Assembly (NCBI GenBank): GCA_030751155.1
Contig: JASMGS010000021.1
Span: forward strand, 1-39,848
Reading direction: 5' to 3'
Length of the DNA: 39,848 bases
Origin: Candidatus Nitrosopelagicus sp.
Lineage (GTDB): Archaea; Thermoproteota; Nitrososphaeria; Nitrososphaerales; Nitrosopumilaceae
The position numbers and the translations under genes were made by a program. The notes beneath the pieces were generated by a model that saw only the letters and a program-made list of their open reading frames with translations, was not told where the DNA came from and ran no database searches. This document shows, piece by piece, positions 9,305-18,786 of this stretch. The stretch's first letter is position 1. Each line of letters opens with the position of its first letter.

Positions 9305-9472
9305 ATGAATTGCCCAGAATGTGACGCAGAATTGAATATCCCTAATGATGCCGCTGTTGGTGAGATTGTTTCATGTAGTGATTGTGGAGCTGACTTTGAG
9401 ATTTCCAAGAAAGATGGTTCCACAGTAGAAATTAAACAAGCAGAGACAGTAGGCGAAGATTGGGGAGAGTGA
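9305..9472 (+). CDS. lysW: Amino-group carrier protein LysW, copy 1 (C-terminus EDWGE)
   Basis: Small acidic carrier to which glutamate or alpha-aminoadipate is attached so that later enzymes can recognise the intermediate. The 55 residues start MNCPECDAELNIPND. Zinc-ribbon cysteines are at 3 and 6 (CPEC) and 24 and 27 (CSDC). The C-terminus is VGEDWGE, the canonical tail; its last Glu side chain is the known attachment site. It lies 9 nt after argG and directly abuts the TTG start of the ligase gene. By context this copy probably serves the arginine branch through ArgX. The second copy in this window (15105-15272) ends in Gln. Confidence 0.94.
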   Translation: MNCPECDAELNIPNDAAVGEIVSCSDCGADFEISKKDGSTVEIKQAETVGEDWGE

Positions 9473-10330
9473 TTGTCAAAAATTTGTATTGTATTTGACC
9501 GTCTTAGGTCAGAAGAAAAGCTTCTTGAAAAACAAGCTATTGATCTTGGGAATGAAACCAAGATGGTCGATGCAAAAATAACTCATTTTGACACAGATAG
9601 TAATAAGCAAAATACAGATTTTGGCGATGTGGTTTTAGAACGTTGTATAAGCTATTACAGAGGACTTCATTTCACTGCTTGTATTGAATTTTTGGACGTT
9701 CCTATAATCAATAAATTTTCTGTTTCAAGTTTATGTGGAAATAAGATGTTAACATCAATCATATTAAAAAAGAATAATATTCCAACACCTAAAACATACT
9801 TTTCTTTTTCCGCTGATGCTGCATTAGAAAACATTGAAAAAATTGGTTACCCATTAATAATAAAACCAGTTGTAGGAAGTTGGGGACGAAGTGTGATACC
9901 ATTAAAAGATAGGGACACAGCTGATGCGATAATTGAACAAAGAGGAATTACAGATGGTCCATTAGATAGAATTTTCTATCTTCAAGAAGTTGTTGATAGA
10001 CCACCAAGAGATATTCGTGTTATAACTGTAAATGATAGGCCAATTGCTGCAATGTATAGAAAATCTTCTGGTGGATTTAAGACTAATGTTGCACTAGGTG
10101 CAGATCCTGAAATATGTGATATCACAAATGAGATAGAAGATCTATGTGCGAAGGCATCAAAAGCAGTAGGCGGAGGTATATTAGGAATAGATTTGATGGA
10201 AGATAAGAAAAGAGGATTAATGGTCCATGAGATTAATAATACTGTTGAATTTAAAGGACTAATCAAAGTTTCAAAAACGAACATACCAAAAGAAATGATC
10301 GAGTTTGCACTAGACTCGGTTAGAAAGTAA
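9473..10330 (+). CDS. argX: LysW ligase, copy 1: probable glutamate-LysW ligase ArgX
   Basis: RimK-like ATP-grasp enzyme that links an amino acid to the C-terminal Glu of LysW. ATP-grasp features: YPLIIKPVVGSWGRSV (about 124-139), LQEVVDRPPRDIRV and the metal-binding end HEINNTVEFKG. The 285 residues are normal. It starts at a TTG that directly follows the lysW1 stop. Compared with copy 2, the substrate-side segment reads KTNVALGADPE rather than KTNTHLGGSAE; copy 2 is closer to the Thermus LysX I remember. With argG upstream, I infer that this copy uses glutamate (arginine branch). The LysX/ArgX split is inference; the family is certain. Confidence 0.85.
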   Translation: MSKICIVFDRLRSEEKLLEKQAIDLGNETKMVDAKITHFDTDSNKQNTDFGDVVLERCISYYRGLHFTACIEFLDVPIINKFSVSSLCGNKMLTSIILKKNNIPTPKTYFSFSADAALENIEKIGYPLIIKPVVGSWGRSVIPLKDRDTADAIIEQRGITDGPLDRIFYLQEVVDRPPRDIRVITVNDRPIAAMYRKSSGGFKTNVALGADPEICDITNEIEDLCAKASKAVGGGILGIDLMEDKKRGLMVHEINNTVEFKGLIKVSKTNIPKEMIEFALDSVRK

Positions 10331-10369: not shown

Positions 10370-11428
10370 ATGACAATGAAAGTAGGAATAGTAGGAGCAT
10401 CTGGATATGTTGGCGGAGAAGTAGTCCGTCTACTGTTGAGTCACCCTGAAGCTGAGGTTTCTATGGTCACATCAACGAAGCATGTTGGAGAATATCTACA
10501 TAGAATACATCCAAGCCTAAAGGGATTTACTGAACTGACATTTTCAGAGCTTGATTATGATAAAATGTCGGATAAATGTGATCTAGTTTTCACAGCAGTC
10601 CCACATGGAACTGCAACTGATATTGTAAAGGCATTTTATGATAGAGGAATGAAAATTATTGATCTTAGTGCAGATTACAGGCTACATAATCCTGAAGACT
10701 ATACAAAATGGTATGGTTGGGAACATCCACATCCTGATTACTTGGAAAAATCAGTATTTGGTGTTCCAGAACTTCATAGAGATAAAATTAAAAATGCACA
10801 ATTAGTTTCTTGTCCTGGATGTATGGCGGTAACATCTACACTTGCATTATACCCACTGATCAAAAATGATCTCATTGATATAGACCACATAATTGTTGAT
10901 TCAAAAATTGGTTCGTCTGGTGCTGGTGCTGGAGGAACATCTGGTACTCAACATGCAATGAGAGCTGGAGTAATTCGACCTTACAAACCTGCAAAACACC
11001 GTCATACTGGTGAAATAGAACAAGAGCTTAGTGAAGTTGCTGGAAAAAAAATCAAAGTCTCAATGAGTCCACATGCAGTTGATATAGTACGAGGAATTCT
11101 TTGTACAAATCACACATTCTTGAAAAAGGAAGTTAGTGAAAAGGATCTTTGGAAAATTTATCGTGCTCAATTTGGTGAAGAGCAATTCATCAGACTTATT
11201 CGCGATAAAAAAGGTTTGTACAAATTCCCTGATCCAAAGTTTGTGGTCGGTTCAAACTTTTGTGATATTGGTTTTGATCTTGACGAAGATAATAACAGAT
11301 TGATTGCACTTTCTGCATCTGATAATTTGATGAAGGGTGCTGCAGGATCTGCTATTCAAAACATGAACGTAATGTCAGGCTTTGATGAGAAGCAAGGAAT
11401 TATGTATTCCCCATTAACACCAGTATAG
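10370..11428 (+). CDS. lysY: LysW-gamma-glutamyl/aminoadipyl-phosphate reductase LysY (ArgC-like)
   Basis: NADPH-dependent reductase that turns the carrier-bound acyl phosphate into the semialdehyde. The N-terminal nucleotide-binding motif is GIVGASGYVGGEVVRLL (about 6-22), and the catalytic cysteine lies in VSCPGCMAVTSTLAL (about 147-161). GSSGAGAGGTSGTQHAM and HRHTGEIEQE match ArgC/LysY enzymes. The length, 352 residues, is standard. The start could be 10370 or the ATG two codons later. It lies 39 bp after the ligase and 3 nt before lysZ. As a single copy next to two ligases, it probably serves both the lysine and arginine branches. Confidence 0.93.
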   Translation: MTMKVGIVGASGYVGGEVVRLLLSHPEAEVSMVTSTKHVGEYLHRIHPSLKGFTELTFSELDYDKMSDKCDLVFTAVPHGTATDIVKAFYDRGMKIIDLSADYRLHNPEDYTKWYGWEHPHPDYLEKSVFGVPELHRDKIKNAQLVSCPGCMAVTSTLALYPLIKNDLIDIDHIIVDSKIGSSGAGAGGTSGTQHAMRAGVIRPYKPAKHRHTGEIEQELSEVAGKKIKVSMSPHAVDIVRGILCTNHTFLKKEVSEKDLWKIYRAQFGEEQFIRLIRDKKGLYKFPDPKFVVGSNFCDIGFDLDEDNNRLIALSASDNLMKGAAGSAIQNMNVMSGFDEKQGIMYSPLTPV

Positions 11429-11431
11429 TAA

Positions 11432-12235
11432 ATGATTACAATCAAAATTGGGGGTAGTGTAGTTGATGATCTGCACCCTTCAGTCGTAGCTGACATAAAA
11501 AAAGTAGTAGAACAAGAGGGTGTTATACTAGTTCATGGTGGAGGAAAGGAAGTTACAAAAGTTACAGAACAATTAGGTAAGGAACCAAAATTTGTTGTTT
11601 CCCCTGGTGGTGTAAAGAGCAGATATACTGACCTGGAAACTGCAGAGATTTTCACTATGGTAATGTCTGGAAGAATCAATAAAACAATTGTAAGGATGTT
11701 ACAAAAAAATGGAATCAATGCAATTGGTTTATCGGGAATAGATGGAAAAATAATTCAAGCCAACAGAAAGAAAAAACTCATAATTATGAATGAAAAAGGA
11801 AGAAAACAAGCAATTGATGGCGGTTACACAGGTAAAATCACACAGATTAATGCGCCATTGCTAACAACAATTCTTAATCAAGGTTATACACCTGTCATCT
11901 CTCCAATAGCAATTAGTGAAGAAAATGATTTTCTTAATGTCGATGGTGATAGAGCGGCTGCAAATGTTGCAGGTCATGTAAAATCTGATAAGGTTTTGTT
12001 TCTTACAAACGTTGATGGATTATTAATGGATGAGAAATTGGTAGATACTCTAACACTAGCGAAAGCGAAAGAAATTTTGCCTCAAATTGGTTTTGGTATG
12101 GAGAAAAAAATACTTGCTGCAACTGAAGCACTAGAAATGGGTGTAAAAGAGGCATTGATTGCAAATGGGCAAAGGGAAAACCCCATAACCTCGGCGATTC
12201 AACATCATACTTGTACCGTGATAAAAAATGAGTGA
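11432..12235 (+). CDS. lysZ: LysW-aminoadipate/glutamate kinase LysZ (ArgB-like)
   Basis: Amino acid kinase family enzyme that phosphorylates the distal carboxylate of LysW-bound glutamate or aminoadipate. Key motifs: IKIGGSVVDD (about 4-13), LVHGGGKEVTKV (about 33-44), the FLNVDGDRAAANVAGHVKSDKVLFLTNVDGLL block, and the C-terminal GFGMEKKILAATEAL. The 267 residues are standard. It follows lysY by 3 nt and overlaps lysJ by 8 nt, so the order lysY-lysZ-lysJ allows stepwise supply of the carrier-bound intermediates. Confidence 0.93.
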   Translation: MITIKIGGSVVDDLHPSVVADIKKVVEQEGVILVHGGGKEVTKVTEQLGKEPKFVVSPGGVKSRYTDLETAEIFTMVMSGRINKTIVRMLQKNGINAIGLSGIDGKIIQANRKKKLIIMNEKGRKQAIDGGYTGKITQINAPLLTTILNQGYTPVISPIAISEENDFLNVDGDRAAANVAGHVKSDKVLFLTNVDGLLMDEKLVDTLTLAKAKEILPQIGFGMEKKILAATEALEMGVKEALIANGQRENPITSAIQHHTCTVIKNE

Positions 12236-13403
12236 AGATCAATATTTAGGAAATCTTTACCAGAGATTTCCTGTTGTTATTGAAAAAGGATTAGGCTCAC
12301 ATGTATGGGATTCAAACGGTAAAGAATACATTGATTGTATGGGAGGGTATGGTGTTGCACTTGTCGGACATAGAAATGAACGTGTTGTAAATGCAATAAA
12401 ATCTCAAATTGAAAAAATAATTACAGTTCATAGTTCTTTGTACAGTAAAACTAGGGAAGAGTTTTTAGAAAATTTATTCAAAATTGCGCCAAAAGGATTG
12501 ACACAGGTTCATCTAAACAATAGTGGTGCAGAGTCAGTAGAGGCAGCTATAAAATTTGCCAGAAAATTTACGAGTAAAAAAGGTATGATTGCTATGAAAG
12601 GTTCTTACCATGGAAAATCAATGGGAGCGTTATCTCTTACATTTAATCCGAAATACAGAGAATCATTCAAACCGCTTGTTGAGGGTGCAAAATTTTCAGC
12701 ATATGGGGATCTAGATGCGTTGAGAGACAGTGTAGATGAAGATACTGCTTTCATAATCTTAGAACCAATTCAAGGAGAAAGTGGAATTCATGTTCCACCT
12801 GATGGATTCTTACAAGGTGTTAGAAAGATTTGTGATGAAAACGAGATCCTCCTTATATTTGACGAAATCCAATCTGGATTGGGTAGAACGGGACGAATGT
12901 GGGCATCAGAACATTGGGAAACAACACCAGACATAATGTGTTTAGCAAAAGGAATTGCTGGAGGGATTCCTATGGGTGCTACATTAGTAAAATCAGACAT
13001 CTTATCTGTTATGAAAAAAGGAGAACACTCATCAACATTTGGTGGTAATCCCGTATCATGTGCTGCTGGCACTGCAACTATACAAGCGCTTACACAAGAC
13101 AATCTACTAAAGAATGCAGTGATGATGGGTGAAAAACTATTTCAAGGATTAACTGAGATGAAAAGTAAACATAGTATTATCAGGGAAGTGAGAGGGAAAG
13201 GTCTCATGATTGGTGTTGAACTAAAATTTGAAGTGAAGGATATATTATTAGAAGGGATCAAAAATGGACTTTTGCTATTATATTCTGGCAGAAACATTCT
13301 ACGATTTCTTCCTCCTTTGGTTATCTCAGATGAGGATGTTACAAATACACTGCAAATATTAGATAAATTACTAACAAATGAAGAGGGTAGAAAAAATGTA
13401 TAG
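12228..13403 (+). CDS. lysJ: LysW-bound lysine/ornithine aminotransferase LysJ (ArgD-like)
   Basis: Class III PLP aminotransferase that aminates the carrier-bound semialdehyde to LysW-lysine or LysW-ornithine using glutamate. Visible: YIDCMGGYGVALVGH (about 34-48), NNSGAESVEAAIKFAR, GSYHGKSMGALS, the PLP aspartate in LIFDEIQSGLGRTG and the Schiff-base lysine in CLAKGIAGGIPMGA. The 391 residues are normal for the family. The start overlaps lysZ by 8 nt and the stop overlaps the Lrp-type regulator by 8 nt, so it is inside a tightly coupled operon. Confidence 0.93.
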   Translation: MSEDQYLGNLYQRFPVVIEKGLGSHVWDSNGKEYIDCMGGYGVALVGHRNERVVNAIKSQIEKIITVHSSLYSKTREEFLENLFKIAPKGLTQVHLNNSGAESVEAAIKFARKFTSKKGMIAMKGSYHGKSMGALSLTFNPKYRESFKPLVEGAKFSAYGDLDALRDSVDEDTAFIILEPIQGESGIHVPPDGFLQGVRKICDENEILLIFDEIQSGLGRTGRMWASEHWETTPDIMCLAKGIAGGIPMGATLVKSDILSVMKKGEHSSTFGGNPVSCAAGTATIQALTQDNLLKNAVMMGEKLFQGLTEMKSKHSIIREVRGKGLMIGVELKFEVKDILLEGIKNGLLLLYSGRNILRFLPPLVISDEDVTNTLQILDKLLTNEEGRKNV

Positions 13404-13806
13404 GGATGACACCGATGAAAAAATTTTAGGTTTTTTACGTGATGATTCAAGAGAATCATTTGTTGTTATTGGTAAAAAACTAAAACTATCAGAATCTGCC
13501 GTTAGAAGAAGAGTAAAAAATATGGTCAACAATGGTGTCATTGAAAAGTTTACGATAGAAGAACAGAATGCTAGTGCGATTGTTTTGGTATCAGTAGATT
13601 CATCAATTGATACATCGAAGGTTTCTGTAAAATTAACAAAACTGAATGCAGTAAAAACTGTCTATGAAATTACTGGTCAATATGATATCAGTGTGATAAT
13701 TAAGGCTCCAAATATTACTGAGATCAACGCATGTATTGATGATCTAAGAAAAATTCCTGGTGTGATTGATACAAATACAGTTATAATTCTTAGAACTATC
13801 CGATAA
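13396..13806 (+). CDS. lysM: Lrp/AsnC-family regulator, probable LysM
   Basis: One-domain-each Lrp/AsnC regulator. The N-terminal winged helix reads DEKILGFLRDDSRESFVVIGKKLKLSESAVRRRVKNMV, and the C-terminal RAM ligand domain ends ITGQYDISVIIKAPNITEINACIDDLRKIPGV. I chose the ATG at 13396 (MYRDDTDEKIL, 136 residues), which overlaps lysJ by 8 nt; an ATG at 13378 would add six residues. In Sulfolobus the related LysM is a lysine-responsive regulator of the lysW operon. The position here, last in the first operon and just before the lysS promoter, suggests the same job. The lysine ligand is inferred. Confidence 0.85.
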   Translation: MYRDDTDEKILGFLRDDSRESFVVIGKKLKLSESAVRRRVKNMVNNGVIEKFTIEEQNASAIVLVSVDSSIDTSKVSVKLTKLNAVKTVYEITGQYDISVIIKAPNITEINACIDDLRKIPGVIDTNTVIILRTIR

Positions 13807-13921: not shown

Positions 13922-15112
13922 ATGAACGATCCGAATCAATATGCAGAGGAATACAATGCTGTAGAGAAAGAACCAAAGCGAATAAGAATATTAGATTCTA
14001 CACTCAGAGAAGGTGAACAACACCCTGGAGTTTCTTTCACAATCAAGCAAAGAATACAGATTGCGTGGATGCTGGATTATTTTGGGGTTGATCAAATTGA
14101 GATTTCCCCTATTATTTCTAATGATCATGCAGATGCAACTAAAACGATCATCAAACAAGGATTAAGTGCTGATATTGTTGCGCATGGTAGAGCGTTAAAA
14201 GAAGATATTGATGTTTCATTAAAATGTGATGCAACTTGGGTTGCTGCATATCTTGGAATTTCTGATATCCATCTAAAAGATAAGTTAAGAATTTCTAGAG
14301 ACGAAGCATTGAACAGGGCAGTAAAAACTGTTGAATATGCTAAATCTCATGGTCTGAAAATAAGGTTCACAGTAGAAGATGGATGTAGGGCTGATCCACA
14401 GTTCCTCATTAAGGTATGTAAAGCAATAGAAGAAGCTGGTGTGGATAGGATTAGTCTTCCTGATACTGTTGGAGTCTTACGACCTATAGGAATGTATAAT
14501 TTTGTTAAAAGAGTTCGTTCTGAGGTGAATGTGCCATTAGATGCACATGTTCACAATGATATTGGGTTTGCACTTGCAAATGCATTCGCCGCATGTGATG
14601 CTGGTGCTGATCAAATACACACAACAATTGATGGTATTGGTGAAAGGACAGGAATTCCATCTCTTGCAGAAACTGCAGTAGCACTTGCATATCTGTATAA
14701 ATCACCAAATGATTTTAGATTAGACATGCTGGTTGATCTTTCAAGGCTAATTGAACAGTATACAACAATAAAACCATATGACTCAAAACCAATTGTTGGG
14801 GAATCAGCTTACAAACATAAGGCTGGAACACATTTAGCTGCAATTTTGAGAAATCCTGCTGCATATGAGTCAATTCCACCAAGAACTGTAGGACAAACAC
14901 GAAAAGTAGTTTTCGGAGAATTAGCTGGAAAAACTGGTGCAGAATACCTCATGTCCATATTAGGATTAGAAAAAAATGTCGAAAATGCAAAAAATGTTGC
15001 AAATGGCTTAAAGAATCTTAGAATGGGTGATCTGATCGAAGTTCCACTTGAAAATAATGTAGAAAGAAAGATTAATGAAGAAAAAATGAGTAAAGGTAGA
15101 AAAAATGACTAA
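13922..15112 (+). CDS. lysS: Homocitrate synthase (LysS-like, DRE-TIM family)
   Basis: Condenses acetyl-CoA with 2-oxoglutarate to homocitrate, the first step of lysine synthesis by the aminoadipate route. The DRE-TIM core is visible: ILDSTLREGEQHPGVSF (about 24-40), VEDGCRADPQFL, LPDTVGVLRP and the metal-binding HVHNDIGFALANAF (about 204-217). The segment GESAYKHKAGTHLAAILRNPAAYE resembles Thermus homocitrate synthase. It has 396 residues and no C-terminal LeuA regulatory domain, arguing against isopropylmalate synthase. Its neighbours lysW2-lysX-lysK support the lysine role. Homoaconitase genes are not in the window. The stop overlaps lysW2 by 8 nt. Confidence 0.87.
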   Translation: MNDPNQYAEEYNAVEKEPKRIRILDSTLREGEQHPGVSFTIKQRIQIAWMLDYFGVDQIEISPIISNDHADATKTIIKQGLSADIVAHGRALKEDIDVSLKCDATWVAAYLGISDIHLKDKLRISRDEALNRAVKTVEYAKSHGLKIRFTVEDGCRADPQFLIKVCKAIEEAGVDRISLPDTVGVLRPIGMYNFVKRVRSEVNVPLDAHVHNDIGFALANAFAACDAGADQIHTTIDGIGERTGIPSLAETAVALAYLYKSPNDFRLDMLVDLSRLIEQYTTIKPYDSKPIVGESAYKHKAGTHLAAILRNPAAYESIPPRTVGQTRKVVFGELAGKTGAEYLMSILGLEKNVENAKNVANGLKNLRMGDLIEVPLENNVERKINEEKMSKGRKND

Positions 15113-15272
15113 CTGTTCTGAATGTGATGCAGATTTGTCAGTACCAAATGACGCAATTGAAGGAGAAATCGTGACATGCGCTGAATGTGGGGCAAGTTTT
15201 GAGCTAGTAAAGGCTCCCAATGGATTTGAGTTAAAACCAGCCCAAACTGTTGGAGAGGACTGGGGACAGTGA
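15105..15272 (+). CDS. lysW: Amino-group carrier protein LysW, copy 2 (C-terminus EDWGQ)
   Basis: Second LysW paralogue, 55 residues like copy 1, starting MTNCSECDADLSVPNDA. Zinc-ribbon cysteines are at 4, 7, 25 and 28 (CSEC, CAEC). The C-terminus is TVGEDWGQ: the last codon is CAG (Gln) where LysW normally has Glu, the residue whose side-chain carboxylate receives the amino acid. All other family features are intact. The ATG overlaps the lysS stop by 8 nt and the TGA overlaps the GTG of the ligase gene by 4 nt, so expression is tightly coupled to the lysine-branch enzymes. It could be deamidated before use, use another attachment chemistry, or not be charged at all. Confidence 0.93.
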   Translation: MTNCSECDADLSVPNDAIEGEIVTCAECGASFELVKAPNGFELKPAQTVGEDWGQ

Positions 15273-16111
15273 CTAGTATCACAATTCTTTATGATACAAT
15301 ACGTCTTGAAGAGAAATTATTGATTGAATCTGCAAAGAAAAATAATATAACAATAGAGATGGTTGATTGTAAGAAATTGTTTATAGATCTAGATAAAAAT
15401 TCACATGATATACAGACTGTTTTACAGCGATGTGTTAGTTATTATCGTAATATTCATTCTACTGCGGTATTAGAAGGGCAAGGTGTAAAAGTCGTCAATT
15501 GTTTAAACACAGGTATTTTTGCAGGAAATAAACTCTTTACGCACATGCTATTAAAAAAGGCAGGAATTGAAACACCAAATGCAACTGTAGCTTTTTCGAA
15601 GGATGCAGCAATGAAAATGTTTGATGAGTGTGGTTTTCCAAAAATCATAAAACCAACTGTTGGTAGTTGGGGTAGGATGGTATCAAAAATTAATGACATG
15701 GATTCCGCAGATGGGATTATAGAAGGTAAGGAAGCTATGCACCCAATTCATCATATACATTTTTTTGAAGAATTCGTTCAACGTCCTCCAAGGGATATTC
15801 GTGTAATTGTGATTGGTGATAATGCTGTTGCTGCAATTTATAGAAATTCAGCAGATGGTAACTGGAAAACTAATACCCATCTTGGTGGCTCCGCTGAAAC
15901 ATGTAAGATTACAAATGAATTAGAAGATGTTTGTTTAAAGGCAAAAAATACAGTGTTCGGTGATATTGTGGGTGTAGATTTGATGGAAAGTGAAGAAAAG
16001 GGTCTTGTTGTTCATGAAATAAACAATACAACAGAATTTAGAAATGTTGTTAGAGTGACAGGAATAGATGTCCCAAAATTAATGTTAGAGCATGTAAAAG
16101 GGTTGCAATAA
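15269..16111 (+). CDS. lysX: LysW ligase, copy 2: probable alpha-aminoadipate-LysW ligase LysX
   Basis: RimK-like ATP-grasp ligase expected to attach alpha-aminoadipate to LysW. The ATP-grasp parts are intact: FPKIIKPTVGSWGRMVSKI, FFEEFVQRPPRDIRVIVIG, GVDLMESEEKGLVVHEINNTTEFRNVVRVTG. The substrate-side segment KTNTHLGGSAETC is close to the Thermus LysX version I remember, unlike copy 1. It has 280 residues and a GTG start that overlaps the lysW2 stop. Operon neighbours lysS and lysK point to the lysine branch. The ligase has no visible active-site loss, which makes the Gln end of its neighbouring carrier harder to explain as decay. Confidence 0.86.
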   Translation: MTSITILYDTIRLEEKLLIESAKKNNITIEMVDCKKLFIDLDKNSHDIQTVLQRCVSYYRNIHSTAVLEGQGVKVVNCLNTGIFAGNKLFTHMLLKKAGIETPNATVAFSKDAAMKMFDECGFPKIIKPTVGSWGRMVSKINDMDSADGIIEGKEAMHPIHHIHFFEEFVQRPPRDIRVIVIGDNAVAAIYRNSADGNWKTNTHLGGSAETCKITNELEDVCLKAKNTVFGDIVGVDLMESEEKGLVVHEINNTTEFRNVVRVTGIDVPKLMLEHVKGLQ

Positions 16112-16112
16112 A

Positions 16113-17234
16113 ATGGATACTCATTTAGTTTCTTCAAAATATGCTGTAAAGACACTTGAAAAGGCGTTAAGAATCTACACACCTTCATTACGGGAAAAAG
16201 CATTAGCTGATTTTCTTGCAGATAGATGTGATGATTTAGGATTTAAAGACATACATCAAGATGAAGTTGGAAATTTGATTGCCATAAAGGGTTCAGGTGA
16301 ACCAAGAATTATGTTATGTGGCCATATGGATGTAGTCCCAGGAAGAATCAAAGTCAGAAAAGAAGGAGATTATTTATTTGGTAGAGGAGCGTCAGATGCA
16401 AAATCTCCATTAATTGCGATGTTATTTGCGGCATCTAGTATGCAAGAAAATGAAGGTACGGTTATTTTTGTGGGTGCGGTTGATGAAGAAGGCAATGCAA
16501 CAGGAATTAAAAACCTTGTAAAAAATAAACCAGAGATAGACTATGCAATTTTTGGAGAGCCAAGCAGTATTCAGAAAGTAACCATAGCATACAAGGGAAG
16601 GTTAGCGATAAATCTCAAGATTAATGTTGAAAACAGTGCTCATGCTAGTGCGCCTTGGCTAGCAAAAAATGCAATCGAAGAAACAGCAACCGTAGTCAAA
16701 GATTTGAAAAATAATCTGGAAGGTGGACAGGAAAATAAAACAAAAGGAATGATGCTTACTGCATCATTAACGGAAATTCGTGGTGGAACAAGTCATAATA
16801 TTACACCAAAGGAATGCATTGCAACCATAGATATCAGAATTCCAGTAGACATGAATTGTAACAGTGTGGAGGAAAAAATTACAACTAGTATAAATGAAAT
16901 TTCTTCGAAACGTGGAATTGAGATCTTATATTCGGTTGTTGATGAAACTGAACCATTTGAGGCTGCTCATAATTCAGCATTAGTTAGAGCTATCACACTT
17001 GCTGTATTGGATGTAGAACAAAAAAGACCTACATTAATTAGAAAAACTGGAACTGGTGACATGAATGTAGTTGGTAACCAATTAAAAATCCCAGTTATTA
17101 CATATGGACCTGGTGATCCTCATGAAGCACATACAATTGATGAAAAAGTATCCATAGAAGAATTCCTAAAAGGAATTGATGTGTTCAAAAGGACATTATT
17201 TCATTTAAAAAGATTACATGGTAGAAGTAAATAA
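16113..17234 (+). CDS. lysK: LysW-lysine/ornithine hydrolase LysK (M20 family)
   Basis: Zinc-dependent M20-family hydrolase that releases free lysine or ornithine from the LysW carrier. Metal-ligand motifs are visible: GHMDVVPG (70-77; H71, D73), GRGASDAKSP (90-99), VDEEGNATG with the catalytic Glu (about E125) and GEPSS. The dimerisation/active-site region contains GGTSHNITP and RKTGTGDMN, and a C-terminal His is in DPHEAHTIDE. The 373 residues are normal for the family. It starts 1 nt after lysX and its stop overlaps dph5 by 1 nt. Only one copy is present, so it probably serves both branches. Confidence 0.92.
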   Translation: MDTHLVSSKYAVKTLEKALRIYTPSLREKALADFLADRCDDLGFKDIHQDEVGNLIAIKGSGEPRIMLCGHMDVVPGRIKVRKEGDYLFGRGASDAKSPLIAMLFAASSMQENEGTVIFVGAVDEEGNATGIKNLVKNKPEIDYAIFGEPSSIQKVTIAYKGRLAINLKINVENSAHASAPWLAKNAIEETATVVKDLKNNLEGGQENKTKGMMLTASLTEIRGGTSHNITPKECIATIDIRIPVDMNCNSVEEKITTSINEISSKRGIEILYSVVDETEPFEAAHNSALVRAITLAVLDVEQKRPTLIRKTGTGDMNVVGNQLKIPVITYGPGDPHEAHTIDEKVSIEEFLKGIDVFKRTLFHLKRLHGRSK

Positions 17235-18271
17235 TGCTGTGGTTCATTGGTCTTGGTATATCTGGAACTGAGTCAATACCTAGTGAATCCATAAAAATTA
17301 TTGAGAAAGCTGATTTAGTATATTTGGAATCATTTACAAGTCCAATTTACGTGAAACATGAAGAAGAAATTAAAAACTTGGTGCATGGTGAATTCAAAAT
17401 TGCAAAAAGATGGATGGTGGAGGATGGTAAGGAAATACTTAATGCTTCAAGAAGTTCTATTGTAGTTTTATTATCTTATGGGGATCCGTATATAGCTACA
17501 ACACACATAGAACTAAGAACTAGAGCAAGATTAGAAGATATAGAAACAAAAACAATTCATTCTACCTCGGCAATAACTGCAATGATAGGAGAGATAGGAT
17601 TACAATTCTATAAAGTTGGAAAGATTGTAACTATAATGAGTGACAAAAAATCTGTAACAACACCTTATACTACTATTTTTAAGAATCTAATAGAAGGATT
17701 ACATTCTATAATATTATTAGAATATAATGAGGATCAAAATTTTTTTCTTGACCCTAAGACTGCTATTTTGAGTCTGCTAGACATTGAAAAGGAACAAAAA
17801 CGAAAAGTTGTAAATAATGATACATTTGCAATTGTTACTTCAAGAGTTGGAATGAAAACACAAAAAATCACCTCTGGAAAATTCAGTGATTTGCTCAAAA
17901 TAGATTTTGGTGAACCGCCACATAGTGTTATTATTACTGGAAAACTACATTTTACAGAATCTGATGCTATCAGCGCATTAACTGATTGTTTATCCAAGCC
18001 GGCCGATAATTCAAATGATATTAAGAATATCTCAATGCAGATGATTGAAAAATATGTTCCAATGGTTAGAGACGCATTAAATGAAATTAAACCATTTTAT
18101 AGTGATGCAAAAGAGTTTCAGGATATACTTCAAAATGCAGAACTTTACATTGATGATGCAGAAAATTTTCTAAAAGAAGGAAAGGATGAAAATGCAGTTT
18201 TGAGTATTGGTTATGCGGATGGTTTAGTAGATGCTCTAAGAATTGCAAAGGGTATAGATCCAAAAATGTAG
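17234..18271 (+). CDS. dphB: Diphthine synthase Dph5 fused to a DUF357 domain
   Basis: Residues 1 to about 255 are Dph5, the SAM-dependent methyltransferase that methylates the modified histidine of elongation factor 2 in diphthamide synthesis. FIGLGISGTESIP (4-16), LLSYGDPYIATTH (79-91) and the region up to VIITGKLHFTESDAI are typical. The protein is 345 residues, about 80-90 longer than standalone Dph5. The extra part (about 266-342) is helical, ends YADGLVDALRIAKG, and fits the small archaeal DUF357 family. The gene starts 1 nt inside lysK and is followed by ribL after 44 bp. The fusion is read from one uninterrupted frame; the DUF357 role is unknown. Confidence 0.9.
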   Translation: MLWFIGLGISGTESIPSESIKIIEKADLVYLESFTSPIYVKHEEEIKNLVHGEFKIAKRWMVEDGKEILNASRSSIVVLLSYGDPYIATTHIELRTRARLEDIETKTIHSTSAITAMIGEIGLQFYKVGKIVTIMSDKKSVTTPYTTIFKNLIEGLHSIILLEYNEDQNFFLDPKTAILSLLDIEKEQKRKVVNNDTFAIVTSRVGMKTQKITSGKFSDLLKIDFGEPPHSVIITGKLHFTESDAISALTDCLSKPADNSNDIKNISMQMIEKYVPMVRDALNEIKPFYSDAKEFQDILQNAELYIDDAENFLKEGKDENAVLSIGYADGLVDALRIAKGIDPKM

Positions 18272-18315
18272 ATTATCGATGCGTTAAAAAGTAATAAGAA
18301 GAGTGAGGAATATAA

Positions 18316-18786
18316 TTGGATTTTTCAGTAAAGTTGAGAAATGATTGGGAAAAACGTGGACTCAAAATTGTGTTGGCTGGAGGAGTTTTTGATATTATCC
18401 ATCCTGGTCATATACACACCCTTAATGCCGCAAAAGATCTAGGCGATATCTTAGTAGTTGTAATTGCTACTGACAAAACAGCCATAAAAATGAAAAAAAG
18501 ATCACCACTACATAGTCAGGAGTCTAGATGTGAATTGGTAAGTTGTTTATCCATGGTTGATGTTGTAATTATCGGTAATGAAGATAATATCTTTGAAACT
18601 GTAAAACTAGTAAAACCTGATGTAATCGCATTAGGATATGATCAGATCCATCAAGAAAAATTCATATCTGATGGATGTAAGCAAATTAACCTTGATGTGG
18701 AAATAGCAAGATTGTCGTCACCCATTCCTGAATTATCAAGCTCTGACATTCAAAAAAAATATGGTGAAGATATCCATGATCTTTAG
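18316..18786 (+). CDS. ribL: FAD synthetase RibL (archaeal cytidylyltransferase-type)
   Basis: Archaeal FMN adenylyltransferase of the nucleotidyltransferase superfamily, which makes FAD from FMN and ATP or a related nucleotide. The nucleotide-binding motif GGVFDIIHPGHIHTL (about 22-36) contains the HxGH signature as HPGH, and the C-terminal ISSTxI-like part reads LSSSDIQKKYG. It has 156 residues. It starts at TTG 18316; no ATG is near. It ends 1 nt away from the end of ribK on the other strand, so the two steps from riboflavin to FAD are encoded tail-to-tail. Glycerol-phosphate cytidylyltransferase is the nearest alternative; context favours RibL. Confidence 0.85.
   Translation: MDFSVKLRNDWEKRGLKIVLAGGVFDIIHPGHIHTLNAAKDLGDILVVVIATDKTAIKMKKRSPLHSQESRCELVSCLSMVDVVIIGNEDNIFETVKLVKPDVIALGYDQIHQEKFISDGCKQINLDVEIARLSSPIPELSSSDIQKKYGEDIHDL

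Follow-up and report, generated by a model that had tools for sequence, protein, structure and literature searches.

How can a carrier protein be loaded when the residue that should hold its cargo is encoded as an amide? This question is raised by a lysine and arginine biosynthesis cluster of Candidatus Nitrosopelagicus sp. (contig JASMGS010000021.1; "the window" is the whole analysed stretch of 39,848 nucleotides). The cluster encodes two LysW carriers, one of which ends in Gln. We describe this gene and its cluster, the spread of Gln-ended LysW among archaea, and a mechanism by which such carriers could function.

A LysW carrier encoded with a C-terminal Gln

The genes lie in the order argG, lysW1, argX-type ligase, lysY, lysZ, lysJ, lrp, lysS, lysW2, lysX, lysK, dphB, coaD, where the names argG, dphB and coaD come from the sequences themselves, with no family search behind them. 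The features discussed here are as follows.

9305..9472, + strand: lysW1, LysW carrier ending in the usual Glu (GEDWGE)
9473..10330, + strand: lysX1, argX-type ligase by alignment, with NVALG in common with Sulfolobus ArgX (3vpb)
10370..11428, + strand: lysY/argC, LysW-aminoacyl-phosphate reductase, single copy in the cluster
11432..12235, + strand: lysZ/argB, [LysW]-aminoadipate/glutamate kinase, single copy in the cluster
12228..13403, + strand: lysJ/argD aminotransferase, single copy in the cluster
13378..13806, + strand: Lrp-type regulator, LysM-like
13922..15112, + strand: lysS, homocitrate synthase-type, overlapping lysW2 by 8 bases
15105..15272, + strand: lysW2, LysW carrier encoded with a C-terminal Gln (GEDWGQ), assigned from sequence, family profiles and relatives
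15267..15269, + strand: CAG encoding the C-terminal Gln, whose G also opens the GTG start codon of lysX2
15269..16111, + strand: lysX2, ATP-grasp ligase of LysX type (TIGR02144, 317 bits), its start overlapping the lysW2 stop
16113..17234, + strand: lysK, M20 hydrolase, nearest solved relative [LysW]-lysine hydrolase 5xoy, candidate deamidase

The lysW2 product has 55 amino acids, four cysteines and the tail TVGEDWGQ, with CAG followed directly by TGA. It matches the archaeal LysW model NF041070 of NCBIfam at 86.1 bits (cut-off 75) and the Pfam zinc-ribbon domain of LysW (PF21344) at 47.5 bits (cut-off 27). It thus has the zinc ribbon, conserved cysteine pairs and profile match of the LysW/ArgW family, and its gene has lysX and other LysW-pathway genes as neighbours. 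The family's C-terminal EDWGE is replaced by an encoded EDWGQ. Because this variant recurs across the family, we class LysW2 as a variant LysW. The initial annotation had described lysW2 as having intact cysteines and a final CAG codon, contrasted it with the GEDWGE end of lysW1, and found that the adjacent ligase looks functional; the first two statements hold. In lysX2 the GSWGR motif and the catalytic residues are intact, and TNT..GG, aligned in common with Thermus LysX, supports its assignment as LysX.

Two trivial origins of the Gln were considered and rejected. A sequencing error or isolated mutation is ruled out by 98 of 101 relatives with Gln and by a second, likewise Gln-ended lysW2 on another contig of the same metagenome-assembled genome (MAG). 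Nor is the Gln forced by the overlapping GTG start of lysX2: GAG-TGA would preserve GTG, and CAA or CAG-TAA endings exist where the carrier and ligase genes do not overlap. The Glu codon of EDWGQ (window 15255-15272) is GAG in 101/101 lysW2-type genes of Nitrosopumilaceae-like genomes, and mostly GAA in lysW1-type genes; this GAG may act as a ribosome-binding site for lysX, the start of which overlaps lysW2. The block lysS-lysW2-lysX-lysK-dphB-coaD occurs twice in the MAG, at 13922-18786 of the window and on contig C31 (L189), with LysW2 proteins 78% identical. Because of this doubling, the MAG is probably a mixture of two related populations.

Spread of Gln-ended LysW among archaea

The initial annotation had asked for LysW C-termini to be compared among relatives. 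Nearly all lysW2-type genes in a first set of loci were Gln-ended; of 101 distinct Nitrosopumilaceae genes of the type, 98 have Gln as last residue and 3 have Glu. Across 245 distinct archaeal LysW genes, found with a pattern that required an EDWG-type tail and allowed any last residue, the last residue is Glu in 103 and Gln in 142, with no other residue found. The Gln codon is CAG in 129 of these 142 genes and CAA in 13. Among the Nitrosopumilaceae-like lysW2 genes, the Asp codon differs from gene to gene, as does the Gly codon just before the Gln in its third base. Since these codons vary while Gln stays (98 versus 3), the sequences suggest that Gln is maintained by selection. Retention at this level suggests selection beyond simple equivalence with Glu, which counts against the pro-form reading given below.

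In the order to which the window belongs, a pattern for EDWGQ followed by a stop matched 277 of 400 genomes and a reversed control pattern matched none, a frequency that exceeds chance. The matches cover most genomes of the window's own family (f1, identified as Nitrosopumilaceae because the same loci occur under Nitrosopumilaceae names), the majority of f2 and almost every genome of f8, which we take to be Nitrosocaldaceae-type and Nitrososphaeraceae-type, respectively; none was found in the 14 other families sampled from this order. The EDWGQ genes of f8 and f2 use a CAA codon or lack the GTG overlap. Outside the order, Gln-ended LysW occurs in families f25, f30, f48 and f51. Besides Nitrosopumilaceae, Gln-ended LysW is present in Nitrososphaeraceae-type genomes, in another family of that order and elsewhere among Thermoproteota, and the observation made at lysW2 is confirmed as correct and far broader than first noted. 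Two pattern matches were set aside: that in G427 is no LysW, and the second in G007 has no stop after it. One contig filed under a bacterial Thioglobus MAG (JAKUUR010000053.1, L060) bears a thaumarchaeal lysW2; its placement is probably a binning error.

Repeated exchange of Glu and Gln

A tree built from 90 adjacent ligases shows at least 12 changes between Glu and Gln in the last residue of LysW, and nine contrasts between the two states fall on well-supported branches. Switches are seen even within a single genus, namely in f48 g117 (Gln in G517, Glu in G482) and f25 g101 (Gln in G509 and G529, Glu in G455). Gln is also not confined to one pathway. The idea that Gln is special to the lysS-side copy or to lysine finds no support: in the Nitrososphaeraceae-type genera g53 and g57 the argX-side copy ends in Gln and the lysS-side copy in Glu. 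Because of this reverse placement Gln is not tied to lysine, and a lysine-specific feature was rejected. Outside the window's order, G493 carries one Gln-ended and one Glu-ended LysW at separate places (L261 and L251), which independently parallels the pairing of carriers seen in the window.

A proposed pro-form deamidated to Glu

The interpretation that we favour is that Gln-ended LysW is made as a pro-form. After synthesis, its C-terminal Gln would be deamidated once to Glu; the usual ATP-grasp ligase (LysX, or elsewhere ArgX) would then load aminoadipate or glutamate on the new gamma-carboxylate, and the carrier would cycle through LysZ, LysY, LysJ and LysK like a normal Glu-LysW. Such a proposal had accompanied the initial annotation. 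It fits best the restriction to Glu and Gln, their repeated interchange, the unchanged ligases, and the ligases and LysK kept by Gln-only genomes, with deamidation itself the inferred step; the further suggestion that deamidation is an obligatory regulatory gate is unsupported. Gln is encoded, conserved, recurrent, interchangeable solely with Glu, and the only form in several genomes, and we consider deamidation by some enzyme to be probable.

The deamidase would most likely be LysK, with ammonia leaving in place of the amino acid, once per carrier. This candidate is suggested by chemistry: the gamma-glutamyl amide carbonyl on which LysK acts when it unloads the carrier is also that of the Gln side-chain amide. 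The lysK of the window is a sequence relative of 5xoy (E = 4e-46) and would act on that side-chain carbonyl too; 5xoy is known to release lysine or ornithine, whereas for a Gln terminus the release of ammonia is a proposal. Against this candidate, the leaving group that M20 enzymes usually recognise is an amino acid. LysK was found in 25/25 genomes tested, at scores below the curated cut-off of the model used, and because it is also found in Glu-only genomes its presence does not discriminate between the two states. That Gln is a pro-form deamidated to Glu, with LysK as the likely agent, is what we infer, and we lean towards it slightly over its alternatives taken together.

A dedicated or general amidase encoded elsewhere could deamidate Gln-LysW instead of LysK. 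The cluster holds no enzymes beyond the pathway genes, an unlinked amidase could be common to the genomes with Gln, and the same evolutionary evidence fits deamidation generally. However, the known families of protein-glutamine deamidase that were searched for are missing or sporadic: the Dop/PafA family (PF03136) was found in 0/25 genomes, with a control search detecting it in Corynebacterium, and CheD (PF03975) in 4/25, and both were rejected as the deamidase. Repeated Glu-to-Gln switches in distant lineages would also be easier without a new enzyme. We therefore regard an unlinked amidase as unlikely.

Ligases do not follow the carrier's last residue

The GSWGR motif of the ligase recognises the EDWGE tail (PMC10433800), and neither it nor the set of catalytic residues shows more than slight variation, if any, among the ligases. 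Raw associations between ligase columns and the last residue were seen, but these were driven by lineage. Over the nine independent contrasts, no column tracked the Glu/Gln state (best net score 3.3 of 9 in 782 tests), a comparison small enough for a weak effect to escape it. Within one cluster, a single set of LysZ, LysY, LysJ and LysK serves both Glu and Gln carriers. Because these enzymes are shared and the ligase columns are indifferent, one common linkage is the simplest reading, and the sequences favour the same linkage chemistry for both carriers. The lack of a ligase residue linked to the Glu/Gln state also fits conversion of Gln ahead of the ligase step.

The same data bear on whether the ligase might load the main-chain carboxylate of the terminal Gln, with the side chain remaining an amide. 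This carboxylate is chemically on offer and the ligase matches the RimK family of NCBIfam; RimK-type enzymes, relatives of LysX, form alpha-linked peptides on other substrates. Against this, the ligase columns do not shift with Gln versus Glu, the downstream enzymes are common to both carriers, and an irrelevant side chain predicts other residues in last position, of which there are 0 in 245 genes. Attachment through the main chain is accordingly quite improbable.

Genomes with only Gln-ended LysW

Seven single-contig genomes lack a Glu-ended LysW. Three of them (G007, G041 and G049, all of f8 g29) have one LysW each by family profile, which ends in Gln; G083 and G056 have two each, both Gln-ended; and G414 and G517 have one each, Gln-ended. 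LysK is present in 7/7. In G007, G041 and G049, both argX and lysX retain GSWGR and the catalytic motifs. In the genus of these three (L198, L196 and L197, respectively), lysW1 is absent and argX retained, and one Gln-LysW seems to serve both ligases. G247 (L211) is a mirror case: the lysW2 that would lie between lysS and lysX has been lost, and a single Glu-LysW remains for the two ligases.

These genomes also speak to a regulatory or decoy role, which the initial annotation had listed among its alternatives. Gln-LysW would be non-loading, and the Glu-ended LysW1 would carry both cargoes, like the single LysW of Sulfolobus. Most Nitrosopumilaceae do have one Glu and one Gln copy, and G247 apparently manages both ligases with its one Glu-LysW. 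Near-complete single-contig genomes with Gln-ended LysW alone, and Gln on the argX side, argue against this role; as a general explanation it is refuted where Gln-LysW is the sole LysW, and we consider it very unlikely. From Gln-only genomes that keep LysK and, in those examined, the ligase motifs, it follows that Gln-LysW is very likely a working carrier, neither an error nor a decoy. In a haloarchaeon, argW E54A gives an arginine auxotroph, the terminal Glu being essential (PMC10433800), and an aminoadipate route to lysine has been predicted for Ignicoccus hospitalis (PMC2614490).

Least credible is that Glu arises without an enzyme acting on LysW, by spontaneous deamidation or as Glu from mischarged tRNA-Gln: archaea make Gln-tRNA via Glu-tRNA-Gln and Gln deamidates faster in hot habitats, but this reaction proceeds very slowly in the moderate range of temperature where most ammonia-oxidising archaea grow, and misincorporation is expected to be rare, so that on general knowledge either route would supply only a small active pool.

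Comparison with known carriers

LysW2 resembles the characterised LysW/ArgW proteins of Thermus, Sulfolobus, Thermococcus and Natrinema in family, zinc cysteines, EDWG tail, gene order and partner enzymes; they carry the cargo on Glu, whereas the attachment residue of LysW2 is encoded as Gln. A likeness in this respect is offered by Pup of Actinobacteria, also a small carrier. Pup ends in Gln or Glu by species, with one of each in some, and Dop both deamidates PupQ and depupylates (PMC3511204). The interchange of encoded Gln with Glu among orthologues is likewise found in LysW. In Pup the gamma-carboxylate of Glu forms an amide bond, and the same is proposed for LysW2, by analogy and not homology: the proteins and enzymes are unrelated, no enzyme of the Dop/PafA family was found in the genomes tested, and LysW bears a free amino acid destined for biosynthesis, where Pup is joined to a protein. 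By this analogy we tentatively suggest that a lysine and arginine carrier is encoded as a Gln pro-form which LysK would first deamidate and then unload, an independent counterpart to the logic of PupQ and Dop.

Implications for lysine and arginine synthesis

EDWGQ was not mentioned in the literature searched; subscription journals lay outside the search, and earlier notice is possible. A metabolic model of Nitrosopumilus maritimus handles LysW as ordinary (PMC6038301), and a paper that names both LysW and deamidation merely lists modification sites (PMC4745020). Annotation and metabolic models at present treat Gln-ended proteins as ordinary LysW. Across most ammonia-oxidising archaea, and in several further Thermoproteota, the codon for the cargo-bearing residue of this metabolic carrier specifies the wrong chemical form. 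Either lysine and arginine synthesis contains a hidden deamidation step, or cargo is not attached everywhere by the accepted chemistry. If the deamidation by LysK proposed here is true, a logic like that of PupQ and Dop would operate inside primary metabolism in some of the most abundant archaea.
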